Assembly: GCA_013619125.1 (NCBI GenBank) | Contig: JABXKS010000086.1 | Span: forward strand, 1-40,447 | Length of the DNA: 40,447 nucleotides | Direction: 5' to 3' | Origin: Clostridiales bacterium | GTDB taxonomy: Bacteria; Bacillota; Clostridia; Tissierellales; GPF-1 | Shown: piece after piece, positions 13,812-40,133 of the stretch | How positions within the stretch are numbered: the stretch's first letter is position 1 | How the letters are laid out: each line of letters opens with the position of its first letter | Notes under the pieces: model-generated | Told to the model about the DNA's origin: nothing | What the model saw: the letters and a program-made list of their open reading frames with translations, nothing else | Databases searched by the model: none | Translations under genes and position numbers: made by a program

Positions 13812-16800
13812 TTACACCCGCTTTTCTGATTTTTGTGCTAACCGCTTCTTCCTTTTCTTTTTCAAAACAAGGATGAAAGCAAGTGCAAGCACAAGCATGG
13901 CTGCGCCAATATAGATTCTGATATCTGTCGTTTTCTCATACACAATAAATACAAATTGCTCTTCTGGCCACTGAAACACAAGATAACTGCCGTCCCAGAC
14001 CGTATCCAGTGACTGCCATCCATTGCCCAACCAAGCATACAACTCATACTCTTTTTGTTCAGGTGCATGAAATCTGAATGTATAGCCCTCGTTCGCGATT
14101 TCATTATCCTTGATTTCTACCTGCATCTGACTAATTTTATTCATATCAGTGAGCAAGTCACTCTCAATATCATGGTCCTGCGTCATTTCAAGGGATGCGC
14201 CCGGTGTGAACAACCCCTCCACCAGAAGATCTGCCGTTTCTCCTTCTTCTTTACAGGCAAGAACTTGTTCCAACGGAATATATTCCGCTATAATCGTATC
14301 TGGAAACACCAACTGATCAAAGTCATACTCAGACCACTGGCCCAAGTACCCTGGCTTTTTAGGAAGTTCCGGCAACTCTTCAGCTTCTATACTTTCCATA
14401 TATTCAAATGGATATTCAATCGCCGTCTCTTCATCGACCACAAACGTCAATTTAAGTTGTTTAAATGCTTCAGGCAAATTCTCATCCTCAAGTAAATACT
14501 CGTAGGTAACAGGTTCCGCTTTTTCTGAATAACTGATCCCATCAATTGCTGCCCACTGTTCACTGACAAACTCATTGTTTGAGATGACAGGTTGCAAGTC
14601 TTCTTGAGGTTCCATTTCATCATCTATTCCGGATTCTCTTTCATTTTTCTCAAACATGCCATCCTGTACATCGCCAGCAATCATGCCAATGAATTCCACT
14701 GCATGATCAATGGTTGTCATCGATCTACAACCTATAATTTCTACTCCAAATCCAGCAATACCACCGATATAATCCAGCCCCGACAAGTGGCTTAAGGAAT
14801 AACTGTTTCGAATCATCGAATAGGAACCGCCGGCAATGCCGCCAACATAATTGCCGTCATCACTGACGACTTCACTCATGTTAAAACATTCAAACAAACT
14901 GCCCAGATCCATGCGCCCAACGATTCCGCCGACATAATCTTTTTTCGCTGTAACCAAACCGGTGTTTTCACATTCTGCAAGTACACCCTTTGTCTGGAAT
15001 TGAAAATTTATTACGTTGCTTTCCGAGGATGTAAGATCGCCTTCTGGATCGAAGTCATAATCAATGGCGAGGGCGCCAGATATTCCGCCCACATTAATAT
15101 CACCATTGATAGTGCCTGCATTCGAGCAGTTGAGAACATATCCAAAGGTCGGTTTCATACCTTCGAATTTTTCTGCATCGGCTGCCGATAGTTCCTCGTC
15201 CGAAATATCATTAAAAATTGCTCTGTCTTCATCCATGGAATTTCGATATCCTTCTTTGATCAAATCAACGACCACAAAAACCTGATCATTGATCGCGCGA
15301 AGATCGTCTGTCAATTCATCAACGGTATTCGTGGCTACATCATTCAACTTTGACATCTCTGCAATCAGTTTGTCGCCAGAGACGAAAAGGTCATTTTTTG
15401 CAGCATCCACGCTTTCTCCAAGCAGAGAAAATTTCGGTGCCCCAAGCGATGCCTCTCGATCCAGCGTTTGCTTCATTTGATTGATGGCCAGGGTGAAATG
15501 ACCGCTTGCGCTTTTAAACTCACGGGTTGCCTGCGAGAAATTGTCCATGCCATGGCCCATCATCTTCGACGCATTCTCAAATTCAACAGCCGCGTCGTGG
15601 AAATCCTGAATCCCCCGGTTCAACCAGTCAAGGCTTGTCTGAAAATAGGAAGACGCCTGCCGAAAGTAGGTCATCGCCAGCGAGACTTCTTCCGAGTCCT
15701 TTTCGTATTCATCCTGCAAATGAACAAGGGCTTTGCTCATTTCATCTGCCGCCAAATCAAAATTGATTTGGGCTGTTTCTAGGTCATCTTTTGTCTGATC
15801 GATAATCTCGTCCACATCGGTGTGAAGGGGATCTTCCGCCGCCGATAGAATATCCGTCATCTTCGATAGAGCATCTGCGAGCGCATTCATCCCGCTGTTT
15901 ATATGCGCCATGCCGCTGTTGATCTCTTCTACGGCTTGGTCCAAAGACTCGTTATTGGAAATCGCTGCGTCCAGATGATCAAACCCTTGCTGCATCTGGT
16001 TTGCACCCTCTTGGATTTCACTGATACTCACGCTAATGTCTGTCAACCCGTCATTGATCTCTCCGATTCCCTTTTCGACTGAATCACCAGACATGGCGAT
16101 GCAAATAAGCCCTGCATTCATCGCCTCCAGACCCGCTGAAACATCAACTGAACCAGCCTCGAGTTCCGCTGTTGCGCTTTCAAAATCGACCAGCACATTG
16201 TGGATGCGATCCATCGTATTGTTAATCGTTTCAATATTCTCGTCGGCAAAATCGACGGTTCTATCTGATAAAAGCTCCATTCGATCCGCAAGATTGGCAA
16301 CAGATCGATTCACCGTTTCAAACTGGCTGCTTACTTCTTCATTGCTGCTGTCAATATCGTTATAGGTTTCATCGATATTGTCTTGCAACGTATCCAATTC
16401 CTCTTCCAGCTCCCGAAAAAAATCATCATCGCTTTTAATCACCTGATAGGGTTCCATCTGCCCGACGATTCCGCCTACGTCTTTGCGGCCAAATACGTCA
16501 CCACGATTCACGCTCGACCCGATAAACCCATCTTGTCTGCCGGCGATCCCGCCAACATTGTAGCCGACATGGGGATATCCAACAACGCCCTCGTTCACAC
16601 ACCCTTCTATAATACCTCGATTGAATCCTGCAATTCCTCCGGAGTTTGTTGCAGTAATGATCTCCTCCTTTGAATTCATTTCAGGAATGCTGATATCTTC
16701 CAGCTTTAGGGTTGCCGGGGTAATCGTTGTATTGACAGCTCCCTTGTTCCTGCAGTTCTTAATCAGTCCATAGTTTTCACCGGCAATGCCGCCCGAAAAA

Positions 16801-17354
16801 TTTTCGCCGGTAAGTTTTCCTGTAAAAGTACAATCTATGATCTGGCCCGTCTCTTCATTTTTAGCCACAATTCCACCGACATGATTTTTCCCAACCAGGA
16901 TGCCGTATACTTCGCAATTTTCTACGATACCTCGGTTTTCACCGGCAATGCCGCCGATTCGATTCTCTGTTCCTGTCGGTTGAAGATTGACCTCGACCTT
17001 CAGATTTTGCACAATGCCTGTGCTTTGAATGTATCGAAACAATCCAAACGTGGAACCGTCATGAGTCAACTTCACACCTGAAATGGTATAATTCTTTCCG
17101 TTAAACTCCCCGCCGAATGTTGGAATGCCCCGAAAATTTTCATCATTAATCTGGATATCATTATTTAAAATGACCTTTAATCCATGAGAGTATGTATCGA
17201 GGGTGCAATCTTGGGCAAGTTGAATTAAATCTTCTTCATCATTAATAAAATAGACCCTTTGTTCAAGGCTATAGGCATTGGTTTGAACCGTGGATACCAA
17301 CAAGGCTATCACCATCAGCATGCCAACAAATTTATTCCATTTCATTTTCATCAT
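13812..17354 (-). CDS. exported GLUG-repeat / coiled-coil membrane-anchored protein
   Basis: About 1,180 residues. Signal peptide at the N terminus (KWNKFVGMLMVIALLVSTVQ). Two blocks of GLUG-like beta-helix repeats (NxGGIAGxNxGxIxxCxNxGxV), roughly 105-310 and 740-905, flank a long helical region (~325-700) rich in heptads and spaced short motifs (INSGMNAL, IQEGANQM). That region resembles the coiled-coil modules attached to Gram-positive RND/MMPL and YhgE/Pip-type proteins. The C-terminus has a beta domain, one membrane span (IYIGAAMLVLALAFILVL) and a basic tail KKKRKKR, so the bulk is outside, anchored at the C-terminus. Start: I chose the ATG at complement 17352-17354, 5 bases after GGGAG; it overlaps the end of the exporter gene, so translation is coupled. 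An ATG at 17369 is possible. Probable partner of the exporter. Confidence 0.8.
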   Translation of the reverse strand: MMKMKWNKFVGMLMVIALLVSTVQTNAYSLEQRVYFINDEEDLIQLAQDCTLDTYSHGLKVILNNDIQINDENFRGIPTFGGEFNGKNYTISGVKLTHDGSTFGLFRYIQSTGIVQNLKVEVNLQPTGTENRIGGIAGENRGIVENCEVYGILVGKNHVGGIVAKNEETGQIIDCTFTGKLTGENFSGGIAGENYGLIKNCRNKGAVNTTITPATLKLEDISIPEMNSKEEIITATNSGGIAGFNRGIIEGCVNEGVVGYPHVGYNVGGIAGRQDGFIGSSVNRGDVFGRKDVGGIVGQMEPYQVIKSDDDFFRELEEELDTLQDNIDETYNDIDSSNEEVSSQFETVNRSVANLADRMELLSDRTVDFADENIETINNTMDRIHNVLVDFESATAELEAGSVDVSAGLEAMNAGLICIAMSGDSVEKGIGEINDGLTDISVSISEIQEGANQMQQGFDHLDAAISNNESLDQAVEEINSGMAHINSGMNALADALSKMTDILSAAEDPLHTDVDEIIDQTKDDLETAQINFDLAADEMSKALVHLQDEYEKDSEEVSLAMTYFRQASSYFQTSLDWLNRGIQDFHDAAVEFENASKMMGHGMDNFSQATREFKSASGHFTLAINQMKQTLDREASLGAPKFSLLGESVDAAKNDLFVSGDKLIAEMSKLNDVATNTVDELTDDLRAINDQVFVVVDLIKEGYRNSMDEDRAIFNDISDEELSAADAEKFEGMKPTFGYVLNCSNAGTINGDINVGGISGALAIDYDFDPEGDLTSSESNVINFQFQTKGVLAECENTGLVTAKKDYVGGIVGRMDLGSLFECFNMSEVVSDDGNYVGGIAGGSYSMIRNSYSLSHLSGLDYIGGIAGFGVEIIGCRSMTTIDHAVEFIGMIAGDVQDGMFEKNERESGIDDEMEPQEDLQPVISNNEFVSEQWAAIDGISYSEKAEPVTYEYLLEDENLPEAFKQLKLTFVVDEETAIEYPFEYMESIEAEELPELPKKPGYLGQWSEYDFDQLVFPDTIIAEYIPLEQVLACKEEGETADLLVEGLFTPGASLEMTQDHDIESDLLTDMNKISQMQVEIKDNEIANEGYTFRFHAPEQKEYELYAWLGNGWQSLDTVWDGSYLVFQWPEEQFVFIVYEKTTDIRIYIGAAMLVLALAFILVLKKKRKKRLAQKSEKRV

Positions 17355-19755
17355 CTTCTCTCCCAACATTCACAACACCTTTAACATTGCCGCGAATCGT
17401 GCCATTCACTGTTGCATCCATATATCCATTCACATATCCCTTAAGTTTCCCATTGATTTTCATGCTACCGGACTGGCTGCTGATCAGCCTATCCCGTTTT
17501 ATGACAAATGCCGTTTTTTCAATAATCGTATCACCCATCAAAAGGGTTTGCGGCAATACCCCCATAACCAGAATCAATGAAATGATCGTCCCTCTTCCAA
17601 GACATACGCCGATGGATCCGACCGCATAATTTGAAGATAGAAACCCGATCAGAATGCCAGACGACGCAAGAATCGTACCGGATGTGATAATGGTTGGAAA
17701 AGCCTGGTTCAAAGACATTGTCATCGCGTCTTTAATATTCATCGTTTTCTTTAACTCCATATACCGGCTGGTGATGACAATGGCATAGTCAATGGTCGCA
17801 CCCATTTGTATCGAGGTGACCACCAGATAGCTTAAGAAGAATATATTGGTTCCCATGATCGGCGGGAAAGAGAAGTTAATCCAGATACTCCCTTGGATCG
17901 TTAAAACCAAGAGCACTGGCAAACCCGCTGATTTAAAGGTAAACAACAAAATGAACATAACAAAAAGAGCGGATAAAACACTGATCAGAACATTGTCAAA
18001 AGCAAAGAAGGTGGCTAAATCCTGATCGCTGGTGGATGCACCTACGATATAGGCTTCGTCATAATATTTTTCAATAGTTTCATGAAACTTTGCCAACTGT
18101 TCAAAAGTTGCTTCGCCTTCTTCTGACAAATCCGTAATCAACAAAATCCTCGAATATTTTTCACCTTCCAATTGATTTTTCCCTCGAGATAGCTCTTCAT
18201 ACAAATCGTTGATCTCCGTTTCCAGATCCTCATCGAGAGTTACATACCCTTCCTCCTTTTGATCATAAAGATACATGAACATATCAATCAAAGGAACCGA
18301 GTAATCCTTGAGGCCGTTGATCAGTTTGCTGTAGGTTTCCTCATGCACAGCGTACGCGCCATAGAGCATTTCCGCCACTTCAATATCCACATCCGTTAAT
18401 TCGGCAAACTGCCTTGGGGTGAGCTTGTCTGCGACCATATAACCGTCTCGCGCTTCCGTATTGGCAAGGCCGACCGTTTCCGTCACCATCCCATAGGACT
18501 CCAGCTCCTCGAGTAATTGGGCTTCCTTTTCATAGTCGCCTGAGGGAACAACTACAGCCATAATATTATCTTCCCCAAATGTATTTTTAATTTTCTTCTC
18601 GGCAAGTAGTGTTTCATTTTGCGCAAAGGTAGTAATGGTGCTGTCGCCAAATACATAATGTGTCTGATTGGACAAGTAAAAGGCTCCAATCAGTATCACA
18701 ATAAAAATCGGCGGGATGATATATCTTGTTTTTCCAACAAAAGCTCCCCAGATGGAGATGTCGGGTACAAAATTCTTATGAACGCTTTTGTCCATCAGGC
18801 CACTGAAGATCATCAAAAGTCCCGGCATCAGTGTAAAGACCACAAGCAAACTAAATACCAAGGCCTTAATCAAAACCATGCCCATGTCATAACCAACCTC
18901 AAATTGCATAAACATCAGCGCCATCAAACTGGAAATCGTGGTTAAACTACTTGATGAAATTTCCGGAATTGCTTTTGACAATGCTTGAATCGCAGCTTCC
19001 CTTGCCTCAAAATGCTGTCTCTCTTCTGTAAATCGGTGGCATAAAATGATGGCATAATCAATGGCAAGAGCCAATTGCAAGATAATCGCAATGGAATTGG
19101 ATATAAAGGAAATCTCCCCATAAATAAAATGCGTCCCCATATTCAAGAGCGCTGCCACACCAAACGTGATAAGAAGCACAGGAATTTCCATATATGTTTT
19201 TGAGGTAAAAAGCAGTACCCCGAGTATGATAAATATCGCAATAAAAAGAACCGTTTTAATCTCTTTTTCCAAGTCTGCAGCCGTATCTTCTGTGATTTCA
19301 CTATGAACATAGGTGTCATAGTCTTCAAGCACTGCGCTTACCTGATCCATGGCTTTTATGGTTGCTTCATCCTTTGCTTCCTTATCAAAAGTAATGGAAA
19401 ACAACGCTGAAGCCGATTTAAAATGCTCGTCACTATTATCGAAGGTAATGCTATTCACACCACTGATCGTTAACATTTGGTCTTTCAATTGTTCTGCTTT
19501 TTCATAAGTGATGTTACTGACCATGACACTTGCCATGCCGTACGTTGTAAACTCGTCTTCCGATATAATAAGACCTTGCCTTGTTTCTGTATCCTCTGAG
19601 AGATATTTTGTTATATCATCATTAACATCTACCCAGGTTCGAGAAAACAGACAAAAAATACAGGCAATCAAGTATATGAGAATAAACCCTGTTCTTTTGT
19701 CCACGATAATCGTGGACAGTTTTTCAATAAATCCAACTTCTTCTTTCTTTTCCAT
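17332..19755 (-). CDS. RND-superfamily MMPL exporter
   Basis: 807-residue membrane protein with the duplicated RND layout: TM1 (about 20-36), an extracytoplasmic domain (~40-170), five to six spans, then a second extracytoplasmic domain (~345-560) and six spans. Typical MMPL signatures are LALAIDYAIILCHRFTEE in the first half and GATIDYAIVITSRYMELKK in the second; the Asp in each Asp-Tyr-Ala is the proton-relay residue of the family. MMPL proteins move lipids, glycolipids or hydrophobic compounds using the proton gradient. The C-terminal ~60 residues are cytoplasmic and glycine-rich (NGKLKGYVNGYMDATVNGTI), an unusual bactofilin-like repeat. ATG 19755 follows AAGGAG. Upstream is a divergent TetR gene; downstream is the GLUG protein with overlapping ends. 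The substrate is unknown. Confidence 0.87.
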   Translation of the reverse strand: MEKKEEVGFIEKLSTIIVDKRTGFILIYLIACIFCLFSRTWVDVNDDITKYLSEDTETRQGLIISEDEFTTYGMASVMVSNITYEKAEQLKDQMLTISGVNSITFDNSDEHFKSASALFSITFDKEAKDEATIKAMDQVSAVLEDYDTYVHSEITEDTAADLEKEIKTVLFIAIFIILGVLLFTSKTYMEIPVLLITFGVAALLNMGTHFIYGEISFISNSIAIILQLALAIDYAIILCHRFTEERQHFEAREAAIQALSKAIPEISSSSLTTISSLMALMFMQFEVGYDMGMVLIKALVFSLLVVFTLMPGLLMIFSGLMDKSVHKNFVPDISIWGAFVGKTRYIIPPIFIVILIGAFYLSNQTHYVFGDSTITTFAQNETLLAEKKIKNTFGEDNIMAVVVPSGDYEKEAQLLEELESYGMVTETVGLANTEARDGYMVADKLTPRQFAELTDVDIEVAEMLYGAYAVHEETYSKLINGLKDYSVPLIDMFMYLYDQKEEGYVTLDEDLETEINDLYEELSRGKNQLEGEKYSRILLITDLSEEGEATFEQLAKFHETIEKYYDEAYIVGASTSDQDLATFFAFDNVLISVLSALFVMFILLFTFKSAGLPVLLVLTIQGSIWINFSFPPIMGTNIFFLSYLVVTSIQMGATIDYAIVITSRYMELKKTMNIKDAMTMSLNQAFPTIITSGTILASSGILIGFLSSNYAVGSIGVCLGRGTIISLILVMGVLPQTLLMGDTIIEKTAFVIKRDRLISSQSGSMKINGKLKGYVNGYMDATVNGTIRGNVKGVVNVGREDDENEME

Positions 19756-23177: not shown

Positions 23178-24542
23178 CTAAACTGCAAGTTCTTCTTCTT
23201 GAATCGTTCCTACCGATTTTCTTGCTTTTAACTTTGGAAAGCCAATAAACAAGCAGATCAGCGCCGACACCATAACCAGGTGCGAATATGTGGAATACCT
23301 GATAATATCAACAGCAACCAACTCACCCGATGTCATCGATGCAGTTGCAGTGGAAGCCGCCGCCAACATCATGCCGCCCCAAGGAACGTTCGCCATCGTG
23401 GATGTCGCAAACATATCAAGGTACGCCGCTGTTCTTCTTGGGTCGATACCGAATTTCTTTGTTGTTTCCATCGCAATCGGTGCTGCTGTTACAATTGCAA
23501 CTGTCGAGTTCGCAGTGAAAATCGTAACCAAAACAGTTAACCCAATAATGCTCAACAACCCGGTCTTTGGATCATGCGCTTTCTTTTCCAGCTTTTGAAC
23601 AATCCAATCGATCCCGCCATTGTACTTAATTAAACCAATAATCCCGCCAACAATCAAGACAATAATTGAAATCTTTGCCATCCCCATCATGCCTGCCTGT
23701 GCAGTAGTCAAAACACCAACCAATTGACCGAATTCATGTTCAAACGCATTGAAGTACATCCCAATGCCGCCAGCCAATAGAATACCGGAAAGCAAAACAT
23801 AGAATACATTGGCACCCAATAGCGCAGCAACCAATACAACCGCGAATGGAAGTACTTGCAACAGGTTAAAGTCGCCTGCAACAAAGCTATAATCACTGCC
23901 CATGGTCATGATCGCAAAGGCAATCATCGTAATGATCCCTGCCGGCAATACAATCAAGAAGTTCACGCGGAACTTATCTCTCATCTCAACACCGCAGAGT
24001 CTTGTTGCCGCGATCGTTGTATCTGAAATAACGGACATATTATCCCCAAATGCCGCGCCGCCCAAAGTTGCGCCAACAACCAATGCTACCGGAATCCCAG
24101 TCGCTTCAGCCAAACCGACTGCAACTGGCGCCATCGCCGTTACTGTACCAACTGAAGTTCCCAAAGACAATGCTACCAAACAAGCCACAAAGAAAAGACC
24201 TGGCACAAGCATAAAATCAGGTATGTAGGTTAAGAATAAGTTCACTACGCTGTCAACCGCGCCACCATCTCTGGCAACTTTCGCAAATGCGCCCGCCAAC
24301 AAGAAAATCATAATCATGATCACTGTGTTTTGATTGGCCGCCCCTCTTGCGAAGGTTTCAATCTTTTCCATAGTCGTACGATTTTTGTTCATAAAAATGG
24401 CAATAAATGCTGCGATCATAAAGAAGACAAGTGCATCAACCACTTTTGAACTTCCCAATGCAATACCAAAGCTAAAAGTTAACGCGAGAAATATTAAAAT
24501 TGGTAATAAAGCCGTGAAACTAGGTTTTCTTTGGTTTTTCAT
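23178..24542 (-). CDS. NhaC-family Na+/H+ antiporter (organic-anion variant possible)
   Basis: 454 residues, about 11-12 membrane spans, NhaC superfamily. Visible: LSLGTSVGTVTAMAPVAVGL, GGAAFGDNMSVISDTTIAAT (the conserved Asp-Asn and Ser-Asp-Thr core of the family), and near the C-terminus the matching half ATSTMANVPWGGMMLAA. Start chosen at MKNQRKPSF (complement 24540-24542) after GGGAGG; a start seven codons upstream lacks a site. It follows the D-cysteine desulfhydrase-like gene by 180 bases with a hairpin between. NhaC relatives include malate-lactate and amino-acid exchangers, so a role in moving the substrate or product of the neighbouring enzymes is possible. Confidence 0.82.
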   Translation of the reverse strand: MKNQRKPSFTALLPILIFLALTFSFGIALGSSKVVDALVFFMIAAFIAIFMNKNRTTMEKIETFARGAANQNTVIMIMIFLLAGAFAKVARDGGAVDSVVNLFLTYIPDFMLVPGLFFVACLVALSLGTSVGTVTAMAPVAVGLAEATGIPVALVVGATLGGAAFGDNMSVISDTTIAATRLCGVEMRDKFRVNFLIVLPAGIITMIAFAIMTMGSDYSFVAGDFNLLQVLPFAVVLVAALLGANVFYVLLSGILLAGGIGMYFNAFEHEFGQLVGVLTTAQAGMMGMAKISIIVLIVGGIIGLIKYNGGIDWIVQKLEKKAHDPKTGLLSIIGLTVLVTIFTANSTVAIVTAAPIAMETTKKFGIDPRRTAAYLDMFATSTMANVPWGGMMLAAASTATASMTSGELVAVDIIRYSTYSHLVMVSALICLFIGFPKLKARKSVGTIQEEELAV

Positions 24543-24591
24543 GTAATCCTCCCATTTTGTCATTCTGATCTTGCTATCATCATTTCATCCC

Positions 24592-24626
24592 GGCAACGGA
24601 TTACTGGATCCTAGCAATCCGTTGCC
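24592..24626 (-). other. stem-loop in the dcyD-nhaC gap without T run
   Basis: GGCAACGGATT (24592-24602) and AATCCGTTGCC (24616-24626) form an 11-bp perfect stem with a 13-base loop. No T tract follows on either strand, so it is not a standard terminator. It may protect or process the mRNA between dcyD and nhaC. I recognise nothing else in the rest of the 24543-24722 gap. Confidence 0.55.
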
Positions 24627-24722
24627 GTTGATGAATTTCCGAATCATACATCCATCCTACTCGTTCTTCTACTCTATTGATCAAACGCTATGACTTGTAA
24701 GCCATTGTGCGTTTCGTGCGTT

Positions 24723-25829
24723 TTACTTGTAAATATGGGCAATCAATTCTGGACCAAAGGCTTGTGTCCCTGCAAAAATACCACCCGTTCCTCCGGTATG
24801 GATATAACAAACCTTGCTTCCTTTTGGAATTTTACCGGATTGAATGTAACCCAACAATCCCGAGAAACTTTTACCGGTATATACCGGATCCAAGAAAAGA
24901 CCTTCTTTTTTAGCGACTTCAATAATCGCTAAACTGCCTTCTTTAGTCGGTGCGCCGTATCCATTTCCAAGAAATGCTTGATCAATATTGATCTCCGCCC
25001 AAATTTCATCATCCGATGGCGGTTCGATCTCAAACTTATTAAACAAGTATTTCACTCGATCAAAGATATCTTGCTCTCCAACGACTTCACCAGGTCCATA
25101 TCTTCGATTATTGATTGAAATAATCTTGGTTTTTGACCCAGTCAATAGCTTGCCAACAATCATACCTGGCAATGAGCCTGCTGATCCATTAGCATGGAAA
25201 ATATAATCAATCTCTTCACCCAATGCCTCCGCTTGACTTGTAACCTCAGCGAATACTTCCATATAAGCTACCCAACCAGCAGGACTCGTACATCCAACCG
25301 GAACATTCATCACTTTATGACCCTCGGCCTCATTATCTTGGATCAACGCGTTCACTTTGCGATCCACTTTCGCCCACAATGGATTCATATCGTAGTTTCC
25401 TTTTGGCTCATCACGATGAACCAAATGAATCTCGGTGCCAAGCATGCTGTTCAACAGCAAATTGCCTTTACGCTCTTCTGGATCTTTTTCATTCTTCGTA
25501 TCGCCCAATACTGCGATGCACTTTAACTGATTGATATTCGAATACTGCGCCAATTGAAGCGCCGCATTAGATTGATAGCCACCAACGGTAATCAAGGTGT
25601 CAACCCCTTGCTCTTTCGCTTCTCCAACGATGTATTCAATCTTACGCACTTTGTTGCCGCCAAATGAGCTTGGGCCAGACATATCTTCTCTCTTGATGAA
25701 AATATCCACGCCATAATCATCCGATAAATTATTCAAACGATGGAACGGTGTTGGAAAGAAACCCATTTTTACTCGTGGGAGGTCTTCCAATAACTCAACA
25801 ACTTCTAATGCTGTATACGCTTTCATCAT
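24723..25829 (-). CDS. D-cysteine desulfhydrase / ACC-deaminase-like PLP enzyme
   Basis: Fold type II PLP enzyme, 368 residues. The D-cysteine desulfhydrase/1-aminocyclopropane-1-carboxylate deaminase signature is plain: FFPTPFHRLNNLS, then IFIKREDMSGPSSFGGNKVR with Lys60 as the Schiff-base lysine, TVGGYQSNAALQLA (substrate-carboxylate loop), GSAGSLPGM (phosphate loop) and IHTGGTGGIF near the end. It would convert a D-amino acid such as D-cysteine to pyruvate, ammonia and H2S. It follows ridA by 7 bases and is driven by the promoter divergent from a DauR/YheO-type regulator. RidA removes reactive enamine/imine products of just such enzymes. ATG 25829 or the next codon. The substrate within the family is not decided. 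Confidence 0.85.
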   Translation of the reverse strand: MMKAYTALEVVELLEDLPRVKMGFFPTPFHRLNNLSDDYGVDIFIKREDMSGPSSFGGNKVRKIEYIVGEAKEQGVDTLITVGGYQSNAALQLAQYSNINQLKCIAVLGDTKNEKDPEERKGNLLLNSMLGTEIHLVHRDEPKGNYDMNPLWAKVDRKVNALIQDNEAEGHKVMNVPVGCTSPAGWVAYMEVFAEVTSQAEALGEEIDYIFHANGSAGSLPGMIVGKLLTGSKTKIISINNRRYGPGEVVGEQDIFDRVKYLFNKFEIEPPSDDEIWAEINIDQAFLGNGYGAPTKEGSLAIIEVAKKEGLFLDPVYTGKSFSGLLGYIQSGKIPKGSKVCYIHTGGTGGIFAGTQAFGPELIAHIYK

Positions 25830-25836
25830 GCTCCCC

Positions 25837-26211
25837 CTATTTGACTGCGATCATTTCGATTTCAACCATTGCCCCTTTGGGCAACTCTGCTACTTCAAAC
25901 GCGGCTCGCGCCGGAAATGGTTCTACGAAAAACGTTCCATACACTTCATTCATCTCAACAAATGTTTTGATATCGGCCAGCAATACAGTCGTTTTGCATA
26001 CCTTGTCCATTCCGCTTCCCGCTGCCTCTAAAATCGCCTTTGCATTCAACAAAGATTGTTTGGTTTGCGCCTTGATGTCATCCCCTGCAAACGCACCCGT
26101 TTTTGGATCGATTGGCAATTGCCCCGATACAAATAGAAATCCATTTGCTTCGATTGCCTGTGAGTAAGGTCCGATTGCACCCGGTGCCTGTTCTGTTGCT
26201 ACTGCTTTCAT
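25837..26211 (-). CDS. ridA: RidA-family enamine/imine deaminase
   Basis: Hydrolyses reactive 2-aminoacrylate-type enamines and imines released by PLP enzymes, protecting other PLP proteins. The 124 residues from ATG 26211 (AGGAGG before it; the frame is open 26 codons further upstream, across the promoter) read [20 protein letters not shown], then [35 protein letters not shown] and a C-terminal [21 protein letters not shown] in which the conserved Arg binds the substrate carboxylate. Standard RidA length, homotrimer in the family. First gene of the operon with the D-cysteine desulfhydrase-like enzyme, a functional pairing that makes chemical sense. Confidence 0.93.
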
Positions 26212-26315
26212 TCTTTTTCCTCCTGTGTAAGAAATCCTTTTCCTGTCTGCCAAAAAAATATCATATTTCCTAGTTACTTTGCAAAACATTTTCTGACAAC
26301 TCGTTCGATAAACCT

Positions 26316-34178: not shown

Positions 34179-34940
34179 TCACTTTACATATATCACTTTC
34201 TTGCAATGTTGATTCAACTCTTGCCGTTTCTCTTCCGACAAACTGTAATTTGTAATAACACAATCAAAATCTTCCAATTCTGCATGCTTTGCAAAATAGA
34301 CCTGATCAAATTTAGTCGCATCCACCAAAAGAACCTTCTCTTTTCCCGCTTCCAAAATCGCGCGCTTCACTTCAGCGTCACCAATCTCAGGCACCGTCGC
34401 CCCCGCTTGTACACTGCAGCCATGGCTTCCTATAAAAACCTTGTCAATATGGTACCTCCGAATGAATTCAACCGTCATAGTGCCGAATACACCTGCAGAA
34501 ATATCACTGTACTCTCCTGGCGCAAGTATAAGTCTATTTTTACCAAAATTCCCGATATAGTTAATCGCCGGCCAAGAGTTTGTGATGATCGTCACATGTT
34601 TCGCCGTTAGATATTTTAACATTTGCAATACTGTTGTTCCGCAATCAATAAAAATCGTATCTCCGTCTGAAACGAGTTTTGCCGCTTCTTTCCCAATATT
34701 GGCTTTTTCTTTCATTTCAAAACCCATTTTCAACGAAAAGCTTGGCTCACCCGCTGCATCTTCATTCAAGTAGGCTCGACCATGCTGAAGATAGACAAAA
34801 CCTTGGCGTTCAAGATATTTCAAATCCCTTCGAATTGTCATGCTCGCCACATCAAATTTTTCAGCCAATTCTTGAATTTCAACAAATTCATTACTATGCA
34901 AAAGCCTCTGTATTTCCAACCGTCTCTCCGTTATATTCAT
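34179..34940 (-). CDS. DeoR-family transcriptional regulator
   Basis: 253 residues. The N-terminal DeoR helix-turn-helix is ERRLEIQRLLHSNEFVEIQE, then LAEKFDVASMTIRRDLKYLE with the family signature, and the C-terminal sugar-phosphate-sensing domain contains IFIDCGTTVLQMLKYL, GSHGCSVQAGATVPE and DATKFDQVYFAK. DeoR proteins respond to phosphorylated sugars. It is the last gene of the unit nagA-like > glycyl radical enzyme > activase > deoR and probably controls that unit through the inverted repeat at 39533-39578. A -10-like TATAAT (complement 34984-34989) in the 58-base gap upstream might give it a separate low-level promoter. Confidence 0.88.
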   Translation of the reverse strand: MNITERRLEIQRLLHSNEFVEIQELAEKFDVASMTIRRDLKYLERQGFVYLQHGRAYLNEDAAGEPSFSLKMGFEMKEKANIGKEAAKLVSDGDTIFIDCGTTVLQMLKYLTAKHVTIITNSWPAINYIGNFGKNRLILAPGEYSDISAGVFGTMTVEFIRRYHIDKVFIGSHGCSVQAGATVPEIGDAEVKRAILEAGKEKVLLVDATKFDQVYFAKHAELEDFDCVITNYSLSEEKRQELNQHCKKVIYVK

Positions 34941-34998
34941 CTTGAATCCACCTCCCGCTTGTTTTGCTCACATCTTAACACTTATTATACAATAATTT

Positions 34999-35907
34999 TT
35001 ATCCAAACCGGATACTCAATCCAATACGGGAGGCATAGGCCAGAATCTCTTGGATTAGACCCTCATCGCATTCGCCAATACCCGACAATGGATATTTTAC
35101 TCCAAGCGCTTCATATTTTCCGATCCCCAGAGCGTGGTACTTCAACAAATCAATTCGTTCGACAGAATCGCCCAGTTCCTTGATGAAATCCAGTCTCCTC
35201 TTTATATCAGGCAGATCGTCGTTCATAGTAGGAACAATTACCATTCTGACCCATATCTTCTTCCCTTTTTCAGCGATGTTTCGCGCATTTTCAAGTATGA
35301 TCCGATTGTCAGTGCCCGTACAGAGTTGATGGATATACGCATCCATCGCCTTGATATCCAACAGAATCAAATCACTCATTTCCAAAATCGGCCAGACTTG
35401 ATCAAAACTCCATAATCCGGCCGTATCGATGGCAACATGAATGCCTTCCGCTTTCAGTATGCGAACAACTTTCTCAAGAAATTCATTTTGTAAACAGGGC
35501 TCGCCGCCGGAAAAAGTGACACCGCCCTTTGAGACATCATAGAACGCGCGGTCTCGAAGCAACCGTTCAACCAGTTCCTCGGCTCCCACTACTGTTCCAA
35601 TATTTTCATATGCGTTATACGGACAAACATCCGCAAGCGTCGCAAGATTTGTACATGCGTCTCGGTCAATTTCACATCCCTTAGTCGTTAATTGAATCGC
35701 ATGATTGTCTGCAGCCTCTACACATGCTCCACATCGTTTGCATAAATTTTGATGAAACATCACTTTTTTATCGGGAAACATTGCTTCAGGATTCGCGCAC
35801 CACGCGCACCGCAGATTGCAGCCGACTAAGAATACCGTAGAGCGAATTCCTGGTCCATCTTTCGTTGAATACCGCTGAATTTTTGATACCAAGCCTCGTG
35901 TTTCCAT
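34999..35907 (-). CDS. glycyl radical enzyme activase (radical SAM), degenerate ferredoxin insert
   Basis: 302 residues from ATG 35907 (AGAGGTG before it; the frame is open 15 codons more, into the upstream gene). It would use SAM and a [4Fe-4S] cluster to abstract a hydrogen from the glycine of the enzyme encoded upstream. The radical-SAM motif is CNLRCAWC (Cys30, 34, 37), preceded by KDGPGIRSTVFL. The insert that normally binds two more [4Fe-4S] clusters is incomplete: Cys56-x2-Cys59-x2-Cys62 keeps three of four ligands (the fourth, expected near 66, is Ala), and the second motif keeps Cys85 and Cys95 but has Leu at 88 and 91. An extra Cys lies at 78. FSGGEPCLQ is the GGE SAM-binding motif. 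The gene is 10 bases downstream of its partner. Confidence 0.9.
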   Translation of the reverse strand: METRGLVSKIQRYSTKDGPGIRSTVFLVGCNLRCAWCANPEAMFPDKKVMFHQNLCKRCGACVEAADNHAIQLTTKGCEIDRDACTNLATLADVCPYNAYENIGTVVGAEELVERLLRDRAFYDVSKGGVTFSGGEPCLQNEFLEKVVRILKAEGIHVAIDTAGLWSFDQVWPILEMSDLILLDIKAMDAYIHQLCTGTDNRIILENARNIAEKGKKIWVRMVIVPTMNDDLPDIKRRLDFIKELGDSVERIDLLKYHALGIGKYEALGVKYPLSGIGECDEGLIQEILAYASRIGLSIRFG

Positions 35908-35917
35908 CCATTCACCT

Positions 35918-38338
35918 CTACCACTGATGCTCTGTTCGTTCAATGATCGCATCCTGCGCTTCCGGCATCAAAGTCGAGAATAAGGCACAGTACCCGGCAA
36001 CCCGCACCATCAAATCCACATGATCTTCAGGATGCGCCTTCGCATCTCGTAGCGTTTCGCCATCAGCAATATTGAATTGATTATGAAAGACATTCTTAAA
36101 TCTTGCCACTTTGATAAAGTTGATAAACTTCTCCAAATTCTCTTCTCCGGCCAAGGCACCCGGCGAGAAGCGCATATTCAACAACTGTCCGCCAGCCATC
36201 CGATCGTTCGGAAGTTTCGAAATCGAGTTAATAACTGCTGTTGGTCCCTCTCGATCGGCTCCCAAGCAAGGAGATGCCCCCTCGTTTAATGGTTTCCCCG
36301 CCAATCGCCCATCCGGTGTAGCCCCTACATCAAATCCATTTGGCACGTAGGAGGTAATATTCGATGTCGACATCGTGTAGCGACATCCTTTCGGACCGCG
36401 CCCGTGTCGATCTGTACGATAATTCGGCAACAAAGCCAAGTACGATTCATAGACATTGGCGACAATTTCATCCACTTCATTGTTGTCATTGCCAAACTTC
36501 GGCACGGCCCTGCACAGTTTGCGCACTTGTGCTCCCTCAGCGCCTTCAAAATTGGCATCCAACACTTCCTGCAATTTCTTAAGGGTTAGTACTTGTTCAT
36601 CGAAAACCAGTTTTTTGACCGCATACAACGAATCACCCACCACAGAAGGTCCAATATTGGACTGGCTGATAAAATCATACTCCGAGCCGCCATTCTTCAA
36701 GGTCTTTCCACGTTCTAAGCTGCAATCAATCGTAGAGGAAGCAAACGCATCAGCATCATGATGCTTCAAGGCACGGTCACAAACCAAATCACAATCCACA
36801 GCAAGATCCGAGTAAAAACGCAACGCCTTTTCCCAGGCCTCCCACAATTTATCGTAGGATTCATATGCCGCGTCACGCCCCTCTTTCCCTGTAATCGAGA
36901 GAAGTTGAATGCCTGTCTTTGGATCCATTCCATTGTTTAGAATAAGCTCGAAAATTTTACCAAAGTTGATATAGGTCATGCCGGTAGCACGATGGCCCCA
37001 TTTCCCCGGAATCGCAGTTTCCACACATCCCATGGACGCATAGTCCCGGGCCGTTTCCAATTCCAGATCCAAAGTCATCATCGCCGGAATCACCACCTCA
37101 TCACAGAACAAAGATGGCATGCCGAAGCCCTGACGAATCAACATAGCCGAATCCTTCAATAAATCATCCGGTGTGTCTTTGCTGTAACGAACACTTAAAT
37201 TCGGTTCCGGAAGCTTGGACTGATTCATGGCTTCCAGACAAAGATAGGAAATGTCATTGGTGCCGTCCGTGCCATCCGGCTTCATTCCACCAACCATTAA
37301 GTTTGAATACAATGGATAGCCTCCGCTGTACTGGGTATGTCCCCATGGACGCACCTTATTCAGGCTGTTGGTCATGATGAAGAAATGTGTCAAAATCTCT
37401 AAAGCCTTTTCCTTGGTCAAGACCCCAGCTTCCAAATCCGCCTGATAATACGGGTAGATATATTGGTCAAATCGACCAAAGGAAAAGGAATGCCCATTGC
37501 TTTCGATCATCATCAGAAGATGGGTCAAATAAACCGTCTCCACTGCCTCATAGAAACTCTTTGCCTTTCCCTCCATAAGATTCTCACAAGCCTTACTCAT
37601 ATCCCTTAATTCTTGCTTGCGTTTTTCATCGGTTTCCTTCTGGGATTTTTCCATCGCCAATTTTCCGAACCGTTTAATATATTTCAACGCCCCGTTCATC
37701 GCAATGATTGAAGCTTCATAGTAATCTTTTTGTTCTTGTGTCAGATCTGGATTCTGTAGCTTCTTCTCCGCGATTCTTGCCATTCCGCCAAACCCGACTT
37801 CCAAGACAAAATCATGGTTGGGAATAACATGCCCATCGCCGGACATGCTGATTCCACCCCGATGAAGCACGCCTTGTCGTTCTGCCTGTCGATTGATTTC
37901 TGGAAGATTGTGAAGCACCTCTTCCGCATGGGTTTTCCCTTTCCAATAGGATTCCAGCGGACGCAAGCGTGCCTTGGTTTCCTCTGTGATCTCAAAGTAG
38001 TCGCCTGAGCGTGATGAGAATTCATCCAATTCTTTGATCACCCACTCAAAAGAATATTCCGGAAAAATTGAAGCTGCAAAATTTACGCTCGCCTGATTAC
38101 CGAAAATCAAACTGTCTTCTTCGATGTAAATTGTCATTTCCTCAAGAATTTTATGAAGCGCTTTCGCTCGACGAACAACAATTGCTTCACCTTCTGTTTC
38201 TTGAAAAGAGCGAGTGACGATCTCTGCCCGCTCAGGACAAATGGAAGGCACTCGATTGTTCATTCGGTTCTGCAATTTTCCAATCCTCTCAAAATCACAT
38301 TCCGTGTTTGATGGAACAAAACTTAAGCATGTATTCAT
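35918..38338 (-). CDS. glycyl radical enzyme of unassigned substrate (GCVET type)
   Basis: 806 residues, normal for the pyruvate formate-lyase superfamily and strictly anaerobic. The active-site Cys is in ASMGCVETAIPGKWGH (Cys438, Glu440) and the radical glycine in VRVAGYCALFSTL (Gly782). There is no Cys-Cys pair, so it is not pyruvate formate-lyase; the GCVE glutamate points to the dehydratase/lyase group. The Asp that glycerol and choline enzymes have 14 residues after the Cys is Thr452 here. Other family marks: RGGISMSGDGHVIPNH (160-175) and ESNGHSFSFGRFDQY (279-293). The ribosome-binding site overlaps the stop of the nagA-like gene, so the two are coupled. Possible roles are eliminating water, amine or another leaving group from a sugar-derived substrate; I cannot assign it further. 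Confidence 0.9.
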   Translation of the reverse strand: MNTCLSFVPSNTECDFERIGKLQNRMNNRVPSICPERAEIVTRSFQETEGEAIVVRRAKALHKILEEMTIYIEEDSLIFGNQASVNFAASIFPEYSFEWVIKELDEFSSRSGDYFEITEETKARLRPLESYWKGKTHAEEVLHNLPEINRQAERQGVLHRGGISMSGDGHVIPNHDFVLEVGFGGMARIAEKKLQNPDLTQEQKDYYEASIIAMNGALKYIKRFGKLAMEKSQKETDEKRKQELRDMSKACENLMEGKAKSFYEAVETVYLTHLLMMIESNGHSFSFGRFDQYIYPYYQADLEAGVLTKEKALEILTHFFIMTNSLNKVRPWGHTQYSGGYPLYSNLMVGGMKPDGTDGTNDISYLCLEAMNQSKLPEPNLSVRYSKDTPDDLLKDSAMLIRQGFGMPSLFCDEVVIPAMMTLDLELETARDYASMGCVETAIPGKWGHRATGMTYINFGKIFELILNNGMDPKTGIQLLSITGKEGRDAAYESYDKLWEAWEKALRFYSDLAVDCDLVCDRALKHHDADAFASSTIDCSLERGKTLKNGGSEYDFISQSNIGPSVVGDSLYAVKKLVFDEQVLTLKKLQEVLDANFEGAEGAQVRKLCRAVPKFGNDNNEVDEIVANVYESYLALLPNYRTDRHGRGPKGCRYTMSTSNITSYVPNGFDVGATPDGRLAGKPLNEGASPCLGADREGPTAVINSISKLPNDRMAGGQLLNMRFSPGALAGEENLEKFINFIKVARFKNVFHNQFNIADGETLRDAKAHPEDHVDLMVRVAGYCALFSTLMPEAQDAIIERTEHQW

Positions 38339-38339
38339 C

Positions 38340-39506
38340 TTATTCTCCTTTTGACCTTTTCAACAACTTGCCCTTATATATGATCTGTTGAATGCTCAAG
38401 TCCTCATCCAATAAAACCAAATTCGCCAATTTTCCTACGGACAGGCTCCCTTGTTCTTCAAAAATACCAACTGCTTTCGCAGGATTCTTCGTTGCGCATT
38501 TCACCGCTTGCTCCAAGGTGAATTCTGTTTTGTTCAATGTCGCTTTCAAACACCCCATCAAACTGATGGCAGGCCCCGCCATAGCACCGTCAGATTGCAT
38601 AAACCCAACCTTGTCTTTCACAAGAATGGCGTCACCGGCCAAATCGTATTGTCCGTCCGGCATGCCTGTCGCCGGCATTCCATCGCTGATCAAGATAATG
38701 CGGTCGTCTTCAAATAATCTCATTGCAGCATTCATCATGCATGGATGAATAAAATTCCCATCCGCAATCATCTCCACCATACAAGATTTCTCTTCAAAAG
38801 CGGCGCCGACAATGCCTGGATTCCGATGATGGAATGGCGACATCGCATTAAAGAGGTGGGTTGCATGACTAAATCCTGACCGAAAAGCACCTTTTGCTGT
38901 TTCATAGTCCGCATTTGAATGCGCAATAGACAAGCGAACACCCTGCGACGCTGCTTCAATCAGTTTCTCAGCCCCCGGCAGTTCCGGGGCTACGCCCAAA
39001 ATTTTGATCTTTCCCTGTGCTGCATCCTGCAACTGATAAAAAAAATTTAAATCAGGTGGAATCAAATACTCGCTGTTCTGAGCACCTCGTTTCACTGTCG
39101 ATATAAACGGCGATTCCATATTAATACCGATCAATTCAGCACCGAAACGATTCCCATATGCACCAACACGTCTGCAAACTTCCATCAAGTTTTCTTTGGG
39201 GATTGCCATGGTTGCTCCAAGGAAAGCTGTCACCCCTTCACTTAGTTGAAATTGAGCGATCTTCTCGATTTCTTCCCCTGTCGCATTGCAAAAATCGATA
39301 TTCTTGCTGCCATGAAGATGGATGTCAATCAACCCTGGAATCAAATAACCGCCTCTGCCATCCAAAACAACCTCATTCTCTTTAGGATGCAAGTCTACCT
39401 GATCTGAAATTTCAATAATTCGCTCTTCGGTCAACCGAATGCTGCCAAAAATAAATCGATCTGTTTCTCTAAATATTTTTACATTTCGCAGAATCATACG
39501 TTCCAC
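38340..39506 (-). CDS. NagA-family N-acetyl(hexos)amine-6-phosphate deacetylase, variant active site
   Basis: Amidohydrolase-fold protein of 388 residues. Metal and catalytic residues fit NagA: DIHLHG (His63, His65), Glu131, His196, His217 in FSHATHLFNAM, and Asp275 in ISDGMPATGMPDG. The substrate-side HHRNPGIVGAAF is also present. Two conserved spots differ from usual NagA: EGPF is ESPF (131-134), and the His of the following KGAH motif is Gln (RGAQ, 140-143). Substrate preference may therefore be altered. Start is GTG 39506 (3 bases after GGAGG) or ATG 39497 (12 bases after it); neither spacing is ideal. First gene of the operon with the glycyl radical enzyme. No nagB (glucosamine-6-phosphate deaminase) is present in the window, so simple GlcNAc catabolism is not supported here. 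Confidence 0.83.
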   Translation of the reverse strand: MERMILRNVKIFRETDRFIFGSIRLTEERIIEISDQVDLHPKENEVVLDGRGGYLIPGLIDIHLHGSKNIDFCNATGEEIEKIAQFQLSEGVTAFLGATMAIPKENLMEVCRRVGAYGNRFGAELIGINMESPFISTVKRGAQNSEYLIPPDLNFFYQLQDAAQGKIKILGVAPELPGAEKLIEAASQGVRLSIAHSNADYETAKGAFRSGFSHATHLFNAMSPFHHRNPGIVGAAFEEKSCMVEMIADGNFIHPCMMNAAMRLFEDDRIILISDGMPATGMPDGQYDLAGDAILVKDKVGFMQSDGAMAGPAISLMGCLKATLNKTEFTLEQAVKCATKNPAKAVGIFEEQGSLSVGKLANLVLLDEDLSIQQIIYKGKLLKRSKGE

Positions 39507-39527
39507 CGCCCTCCCGTTTCACTATTT

Positions 39528-39578
39528 ATTGTAACACAATATAACATATCATCAAGTGAACTTATGTTATATTGTGTT
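39528..39578 (-). promoter_or_regulatory. promoter and 16-bp inverted repeat of the glycyl radical enzyme operon
   Basis: AACACAATATAACATA (39533-39548) and TATGTTATATTGTGTT (39563-39578) are perfect 16-bp inverted arms separated by 14 bases. A minus-strand promoter, TTGATG (complement 39550-39555), 16 bases, TACAAT (complement 39528-39533), has one arm filling its spacer. It is probably the binding site of the DeoR regulator encoded last in the operon. Confidence 0.75.
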
Positions 39579-39692: not shown

Positions 39693-40133
39693 TTACAGCA
39701 GATTTCCTATATGGTTCTGTACCTTGTGGGTGAGTTTTAACACCTCGGCATACTCAAACAGTGTTCGACTATCCTCGTCCGGATCCTTCGCATAGCGCTG
39801 AACAGCCAGCTCAACGACTTCTTCTCCCAATTGCTGCCTGTGCTTTACAACTTCACAGATCGTACGTTCCCGATCAAAGATCCTGATCCTTGTGTTATCC
39901 ACCATCATGGTAACCAACCCAATACTCAAAAACTTCTTCTCCTGATAAAAAGGTTCAACTCTCAAGTCATCGATCTGATACTGATCCTTGTCACCATCCT
40001 GATCCACTGCGATTTGCCATTTTGAAGGTTTTTGATCCGCATAGTTGTAATAATAAAGCGCGCTCTCCAAGGTGATTACGGCTTCTGGAAATAACCGAGA
40101 AAGAATCACTTCTTCTTTGATTTTATCTTTCAT
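39693..40133 (-). CDS. AbiEi-like antitoxin, lacking the N-terminal winged helix
   Basis: 146 residues that match the C-terminal two thirds of AbiEi-type antitoxins of type IV toxin-antitoxin systems: LFPEAVITLESALYYYNYAD (family: P.ai.s..sAL..hgltd), IRIFDRERTICEVVKHRQQL (family: v.d.ERTicDi.r.r...) and an ending with helical repeats. Full-length members are about 200 residues and start with a winged-helix DNA-binding domain that is missing here. Immediately upstream there is no decayed remnant, but a clean GAGGTG ribosome-binding site and a -10-like GATAAGAT, so it seems to be expressed as a short protein. No AbiEii nucleotidyltransferase toxin follows; a terminator does. It may be an orphan antitoxin or an anti-addiction relic. 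Confidence 0.68.
   Translation of the reverse strand: MKDKIKEEVILSRLFPEAVITLESALYYYNYADQKPSKWQIAVDQDGDKDQYQIDDLRVEPFYQEKKFLSIGLVTMMVDNTRIRIFDRERTICEVVKHRQQLGEEVVELAVQRYAKDPDEDSRTLFEYAEVLKLTHKVQNHIGNLL

Follow-up and report, generated by a model that had tools for sequence, protein, structure and literature searches.

A glycyl radical enzyme clade neighbouring YbiW and an altered NagA point to a possible amino-sugar branch of 1,5-anhydrohexitol fermentation in a Clostridiales bacterium

For many glycyl radical enzymes (GREs) found in gut and sediment bacteria, no substrate has been assigned. In the published anhydrohexitol pathway the later steps belong to fructose-6-phosphate aldolase (FSA) and GldA, and the GREs concerned, YbiW and PflD, are reportedly the subject of a primary paper by Ma et al. 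(JACS, 2024). Protein Data Bank titles describe YbiW with 1,5-anhydroglucitol-6-phosphate (8id7) and PflD with 1,5-anhydromannitol-6-phosphate (8id0), and PMC12441222 reports that the two enzymes cleave these anhydrohexitol phosphates to 1-deoxyfructose-6-phosphate. Here we analyze a GRE operon on contig JABXKS010000086.1 of a Clostridiales bacterium (assembly GCA_013619125.1; order Tissierellales), whose 40,447 nucleotides constitute the window referred to below. The GRE of this operon belongs to a clade adjoining YbiW, and the N-acetylhexosamine-6-phosphate deacetylase (NagA)-like protein encoded with it carries Phe in place of the His that touches the anomeric hydroxyl in ordinary NagA. We propose that the operon supplies the central enzymes of an amino-sugar branch of 1,5-anhydrohexitol fermentation, a reading whose substrate is deduced from these comparisons and to which we give an even chance of being correct. 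A preliminary description of the locus had suggested an anaerobic pathway in which an amino-sugar derivative first loses its N-acetyl group and is then processed by radical chemistry, and our results support this outline at that same strength.

The operon is a four-gene unit on the minus strand, and gene calling confirmed the order nagA-like, GRE, activase and deoR reported previously. The nagA-like gene (39506-38340; 388 aa, GTG start) is separated by 1 bp from the GRE gene (38338-35918; 806 aa), which is followed by the gene for a radical S-adenosylmethionine (SAM) GRE activase (35952-34999; 317 aa) and by the deoR regulator gene (34940-34179; 253 aa). The activase and GRE genes overlap, and the use of a second in-frame ATG at approximately 35907 would remove this overlap. 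The nagA-like product scores 302.9 bits against the TIGR00221 nagA model (cut-off 225.65), and the activase 302.6 bits against TIGR02494 (cut-off 174.35); Pfam domains Radical_SAM and Fer4_12 were detected in the activase, and HTH_DeoR and DeoRC in the regulator.

The window GRE belongs to the PFL2/glycerol-dehydratase type, on the basis of its score against TIGR01774 (731.7 bits; cut-off 678.2), the catalytic Cys438, the glycyl radical residue Gly782 in an RVAGY motif and the activase gene directly behind it. Cys438 forms part of the GCVET motif with Glu440 that had been noted in the preliminary description. The protein falls below every listed NCBIfam equivalog cut-off, including those of PRK09983 (546 of 1109 bits), HypD (505 of 1100) and CutC (469 of 1050) and those of the sulfopropanediol dehydratases, the indoleacetate and hydroxyphenylacetate decarboxylases and pyruvate formate-lyase (PFL); glycerol and propanediol dehydratase are not represented by an equivalog model among the listed matches. 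The locus resembles the glycerol/propanediol dehydratase, CutC and HypD operons in its GRE fold and in combining a GRE with an activase, but its GRE lacks the Asp near position 452 and does not reach the CutC and HypD cut-offs. A Pfam scan of 20 window genes revealed no microcompartment family. The missing Asp, to which the preliminary description had drawn attention, is real (residues 449-454 read HRATGM), but it is also missing from the aligned YbiW-type sequences; its absence therefore points to ring opening of a 1,5-anhydrohexitol-6-phosphate and not to a new motif.

Among solved sequences, the closest to the window GRE are the Enterobacter YbiW homologue 6xs4 (599 bits) and YbiW itself (596 and 596), with the next at 556. 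Identity to E. coli YbiW (8id7) is about 39%, and the two proteins share the SGD[GA]H, NK[VI]R, GKWGxR.TGM and G.GP segments, as well as FSA as a genomic neighbour of their groups. Across 33 aligned rows of the clade and of YbiW-type sequences, Cys438, Glu440, Gly782, His170, His283, Asn327, Arg330, His334, Trp447 and Arg450 are invariant, and both groups have the GKWG(H/Y)R.TGM and G(R/K/Q)GP segments, neither of which is present in the PflD, PDD, HypD and CutC rows. PflD, for which the same type of reaction is proposed, lies on a far branch at roughly 34-35% identity. The AlphaFold2 model of the window GRE (mean predicted local distance difference test score of 85.6) adopts the GRE fold.

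The clade was delimited through a pattern-based, non-exhaustive scan that covered 84,980 species with one genome apiece and gathered 43 loci. Of these, 38 constitute a set with 56-76% GRE identity to the window, and none of the gathered GREs falls between 43% and 56%. Members of the set are found in Pseudomonadota, Bacillota, Spirochaetota, Actinomycetota, Chloroflexota and one metagenome-assembled genome (MAG) called Bacteroidetes. The distribution of the clade is patchy: the two other genomes of the genus that were searched have no clade GRE (best matches at 35% and 34%), and a search of 391 genomes from the class yielded a single further genome with a clade GRE (74%). In a FastTree phylogeny, 33 clade members form a single group (support 1.0; stem 0.50) that adjoins 17 YbiW-type sequences (0.97), with a joint support for both groups of 0.83, or 0.997 when L087 is added. 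The window GRE hence lies outside the YbiW branch, in a separate neighbouring clade set apart by a long branch. This tree omits L041, L056, L067, L069 and L073, which have split or partial frames, and L043; the GREs of L070, L071 and L074 were counted as YbiW-type, and those of L075 and L076 (29-31% identity) as neither. Searches of E. coli genomes returned no match to the L040 GRE (megablast) or to the L036 activase-nagB-nagA segment (blastn). In plasmids, the GRE matched 150 records and the L036 NagA 222, none of them at 60% identity or above, and the best among those listed reached 41% and 39%, respectively. In two Oscillospiraceae MAGs (L053, 4937-7417; L048, 14568-17060), a GRE of the clade lies near one of the YbiW type.

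The strongest indication of a distinct substrate comes from the deacetylase. By family score and catalytic residues the window protein is a NagA: it retains H63, H65, E131, H196, H217 and D275, the metal ligands and catalytic Asp according to family knowledge and PMC8970586, but it has Phe at position 252. In PMC6016474, mycobacterial NagA in complex with N-acetylglucosamine-6-phosphate (GlcNAc-6-P) is described as touching the anomeric hydroxyl through His-244 and the phosphate through Asn-212. His-244 aligns with the window F252 (chain residues 260 and 228 correspond to 244 and 212 in the published numbering), and so does His272 of human AMDHD2, which PMC8970586 reports as binding a sugar hydroxyl. 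Neighbours were counted within 9 kb of the GRE throughout, with family names taken from scanned representatives. The preliminary description had allowed for the pairing with nagA being confined to this strain; it recurs in 10 of the 38 related loci, and nine of those ten NagAs share the Phe. With the window included, Phe is thus found in 10 of 11 NagAs near a clade GRE, the exception being L049.

In a 50-row alignment, position 252 is Phe in 10/10 linked and His in 40/40 unlinked NagAs, the latter including L049, which lies 7.1 kb from its GRE, and L076; the alignment omits a 175-aa fragment that ends before position 252 (L061) and a sequence with an internal stop that shows His (L139). No other of the 61 columns that are at least 85% conserved among the unlinked NagAs is altered in both linked lineages. 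These lineages, one comprising the window, L044 and L069 and the other the NagAs of seven enterobacteria, occupy separate parts of the tree, and the hypothesis that the ten Phe-bearing NagAs arose only once is rejected (approximately unbiased test, p-AU 2.8e-5), with the cautions that the groups were named after inspection of the tree and that long branches are involved. In the 391 genomes, the 13 top-scoring further matches to the window NagA all have His, although four of these coincide with loci of the first set. An otherwise intact NagA has therefore exchanged its anomeric-hydroxyl ligand for Phe in two separate lineages, both near clade GREs, and having lost that ligand the linked NagAs are unlikely to be ordinary GlcNAc-6-P enzymes. 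The simplest reading of H252F suggested by this comparison is a substrate without an anomeric hydroxyl, that is, a 1,5-anhydro N-acetylhexosamine-6-phosphate; such a compound, with an amine where the YbiW substrate has its C2 hydroxyl, would suit a relative of YbiW.

The loss of this ligand also bears on glucosamine-6-phosphate (GlcN6P) and galactosamine-6-phosphate (GalN6P), which the preliminary description had put forward as likely substrates of the radical enzyme and which we consider poor candidates, since ring opening of an aldosamine by the GRE would only repeat the job of NagB. The NagA could still produce these compounds for direct dehydration or deamination by the GRE, for instance through a C1 radical and loss of the C2 amine to yield a 2-deoxy sugar phosphate. 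The NagA and NagB families do act on GlcN6P and GalN6P, and CutC and the C-N-cleaving hydroxyproline enzyme 7vua demonstrate that GREs are able to cleave C-N bonds. Such a route is nonetheless improbable in our assessment: H252F removes the contact to the anomeric hydroxyl of exactly these substrates, no 2-deoxy-sugar enzyme was seen among the scanned neighbours, the linkage to FSA is left unexplained, and the nearest characterized GREs act on anhydro sugars. More remote still is a substrate with a group on C1, such as a phosphorylated glycoside (e.g. a disaccharide), against which Phe252 would stack. GH4-type genes near the GRE in L045, L050, L057 and L061 would suit such a compound, but Phe is no roomier than His, the GH4 cluster (c10) is present in only 4 of the 38 loci, and the nearest characterized GREs work on anhydrohexitols unsubstituted at C1.

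The gene neighbourhoods of the clade distinguish shared components from those specific to it. An activase is found near the GRE in 33 of the 38 loci (in L066 the count caught a distant second activase, but an adjacent one is also present) and a DeoR homologue in 26. Amino-sugar genes comprise the NagB family (11 loci) and NagA, together with NagB-II-like SIS proteins (3), BadF/NagK-like kinases (3) and NagC-like ROK proteins (2); other neighbours include FSA (9), GldA (6) and a Nag/Glc-type phosphotransferase system (PTS) IIBC component (5). Taken as the union of these lists, 18/38 loci show NagA, NagB, NagB-II, a NagK-like or NagC-like protein or a Nag/Glc-type PTS. The fullest operon, in Epulopiscium (L044), reads nagA-nagB-GRE-activase-deoR-FSA with PTS IIBC further on. 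Seven enterobacteria (three Phytobacter, Klebsiella, Citrobacter, Pluralibacter and Escherichia sp.) share the arrangement deoR-GRE-activase-nagB-nagA, located directly behind fsaB-gldA in six of the seven; in L038, L042 and L043, a GRE labelled as PflD by its place in the tree and its gene order lies upstream of fsaB-gldA and the new operon. A GH4-like glycosidase gene, its family named from the L061 representative of c10, is immediately divergent from the GRE in L045 and L050.

These counts were compared with 16 control loci, comprising 15 YbiW-type loci and L087, which lies just outside both groups; the YbiW-type GREs of L048 and L053 were omitted because they occur in clade loci, and clade and control flanks are of unequal length. 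The controls contain FSA in seven loci, GldA in two, and neither NagA nor NagB in any. NagA or NagB/NagB-II is hence present at 15/38 clade loci versus 0/16 controls (Fisher p 0.002, or 0.02 with Enterobacteriaceae counted once; without L087, p 0.005, or 0.04 with the enterobacteria as one). Since FSA occurs in both sets and NagA/NagB at the clade only, FSA is the shared part of the system and the amino-sugar genes the addition made by the clade, in which GlcNAc-type uptake genes also recur. The comparison bears directly on a plainer account, in which the GRE is a YbiW-like 1,5-anhydrohexitol-6-phosphate lyase acting at a C2 hydroxyl, perhaps on another stereoisomer, and NagA and NagB serve ordinary N-acetylglucosamine (GlcNAc) use alongside it. 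The position of the GRE next to YbiW in the tree, their shared active-site segments, the linkage of FSA to both groups, the use of 1,5-anhydroglucitol-6-phosphate by YbiW and the ordinary His-bearing NagA 7.1 kb from the clade GRE of L049 are all in keeping with this account. We still judge it unlikely, given that NagA and NagB do not flank the 16 control loci, that the ten nearest NagAs have lost an anomeric-hydroxyl ligand kept in 40 others, and that 32 clade GREs are consistently distinguished from 13 YbiW-type ones at 37 positions, including E>G161, N>F411 and Y>H449.

The amino-sugar reading that we prefer can be laid out as a sequence of steps. A PTS or kinase, of the types encoded near the GRE in relatives, would supply the 6-phosphate of a 2-acetamido-1,5-anhydro-2-deoxyhexitol (anhydro-GlcNAc-6-P or one of its stereoisomers), from which the modified NagA, with its catalytic residues intact, would remove the acetyl group. 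Once switched on by the activase, the GRE would abstract the hydrogen from the amine-bearing C2 and break the C1-O5 bond, by analogy with YbiW, leaving the imine of 1-deoxyfructose-6-phosphate; our guess is that this imine would shed ammonia in water or on a NagB-type protein. Judging from the linkage to FSA and the reported YbiW product, FSA would then split 1-deoxyfructose-6-phosphate into glyceraldehyde-3-phosphate and hydroxyacetone, which GldA-type enzymes can reduce, and DeoR would repress the operon through a palindrome over its promoter. What the analysis shows directly is the gene order, the clade with its conserved radical residues, the recurring linkage, H252F in two lineages and a nagB-fsa pair in another part of the genome; the substrate, the sequence of reactions, the imine intermediate, the part played by NagB and the operator for DeoR are deduced.

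The remaining pathway genes likely lie outside the window. The preliminary description had called the pathway incomplete, and FSA is indeed absent from the window itself, but the pathway may be less incomplete than assumed: the only FSA of the genome is encoded on contig C81, where its gene immediately follows that of one of the genome's two NagBs (L154, 9554-11219). A TTGGTATATACATTATACCAAG palindrome, which we take to resemble a GntR/NagR site, lies upstream of this nagB-fsa pair. The genome also encodes a second, ordinary NagA with His at the 252 column on contig C1, and three PTS_EIIC genes; a partial NagA-like match on contig C44 (L099) was kept outside the NagA comparison. In E. coli NagB numbering, the D141-G-H143 stretch is kept in the NagBs, with Asn for Asp in the C81 protein, and Glu148 is kept except in the linked NagBs of L044 (8884-9624) and L062 (10904-11659), which have Met for the Glu of the FNEP motif. 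As a clue to role, these active-site changes are suggestive only.

Several observations weigh against the amino-sugar reading. NagB has no obvious step on a sugar lacking a C1 carbonyl; the imine-hydrolase role proposed for it is a guess whose one aid is that the two linked proteins just mentioned have lost the FNEP Glu. Twenty of the 38 related loci show no amino-sugar gene within 9 kb, many of their flanks being truncated, and curated cut-offs are missed by the L044 NagB and by those NagK-, NagC- and NagB-II-like representatives that were scanned. FSA is not commoner at clade than at control loci (p 0.19), and six of its nine occurrences, like all six of GldA, correspond to the enterobacterial fsaB-gldA pair, which is perhaps native to that place. 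The boundary of the linked NagA set was drawn after looking at the data and leaves the His-bearing NagA of L049 outside, while the Phe-bearing NagA of L069, 3.8 kb from its GRE, is not in one run with it. At L076 (4716-9413), the activase of a distant, non-clade GRE (31%) adjoins a divergent NagA of the ordinary His-bearing kind, so finding a NagA near a GRE is not remarkable in itself. No PTS is encoded in the window unit, and the C81 nagB-fsa pair, which lacks the inverted repeat of the operon and has another palindrome, may also take part in ordinary GlcNAc metabolism. Nor is YbiW singled out by fold comparison (top nine rows, Z 45.2-47.9), which, with its top rows nearly tied, was considered neutral and discarded as a guide to substrate. 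Finally, no naturally occurring 1,5-anhydro amino sugar came to light, although the literature query was too poorly framed to be informative.

The upstream region of the operon contains a perfect 16-bp inverted repeat with a 14-bp spacer (arms 39578-39563 and 39548-39533) that encloses a promoter-like site on the minus strand (TTGATG-16-TACAAT, with TG before the -10; 39555-39528; a consensus match only) and constitutes a candidate DeoR operator. An exact copy of the arm occurs only at this operon in the 3.4 Mb genome, with no other copy at fewer than two mismatches, which fits a local operator for the DeoR regulator. As a regulon marker the arm was rejected, since allowing up to three mismatches gives 33 matches versus 47 in the control and ties in nothing else, and no repeat common to the other clade loci was seen, their palindromes being variable. 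A terminator-like hairpin (39678-39649, minus strand; 13 pairs, 7 of them G-C) separates the operon from an upstream AbiEi-like gene. The single promoter proposed in the preliminary description is consistent with this site and hairpin boundary, but the region holds 14 promoter-like sites versus 11.9 expected from shuffles and four terminator-like hairpins versus 5.6, so that numbers of such sites are near those of shuffled sequence. The AbiEi-like gene (39693-40133, minus strand; 146 aa), close to the contig end at 40447, matches PADLOC AbiEi antitoxin models (6.9e-52) from model position 56 onward and has no Pfam or NCBIfam match.

Downstream of the operon lies a ribose-type cluster (33969-27220, minus strand) encoding LacI, RbsD, BtpA/SgcQ, ribokinase RbsK, RbsA, RbsC and RbsB. 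We do not count it with the pathway, given that it possesses a separate promoter-like site (34037-34009; 11/12 consensus matches) and that RbsD, BtpA and RbsK do not recur near clade GREs, save for BtpA in L059 and a 25% RbsK-type match in L065. Rbs-type ABC permeases are found near the clade GRE in 6 of the 38 loci, and a permease of this type may transport the substrate of the operon. The placement of a BtpA/SgcQ-family protein within a ribose-type cluster is, in our view, unusual. Further along the minus strand, an NhaC-type transporter, a pyridoxal-phosphate (PLP) enzyme of the D-cysteine desulfhydrase / D-cysteate sulfo-lyase / 1-aminocyclopropane-1-carboxylate (ACC) deaminase group and RidA are encoded in a row (23178-26289) with a divergent YheO-like regulator, resembling an amino-acid catabolic unit. 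A gene for a 1185-aa protein with weak GLUG and MCP-like matches (13812-17369, minus strand) overlaps an 807-aa open reading frame (17332-19755).

A search of titles and abstract openings in the open-access literature returned no match for the GRE/NagA pairing, and priority cannot be claimed on that basis. One article, PMC12628686, contains both exact terms, but names a GRE only in its reference list. The locus illustrates how a residue change in a partner enzyme can indicate what a substrate lacks, narrowing an open question about a GRE to one named compound. With slightly less confidence than we place in the amino-sugar reading of the operon, and just short of an even chance, we envisage a new anaerobic route for N-acetylated 1,5-anhydro amino sugars, in which a re-specialized NagA, an imine-forming GRE and a NagB acting as imine hydrolase would have been assembled separately in Enterobacteriaceae and in Clostridia/Actinobacteria. 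If correct, this would add amino sugars to radical-based sugar breakdown, predict an overlooked metabolite and imply that guts and sediments contain 1,5-anhydro amino sugars as a genuine nutrient.

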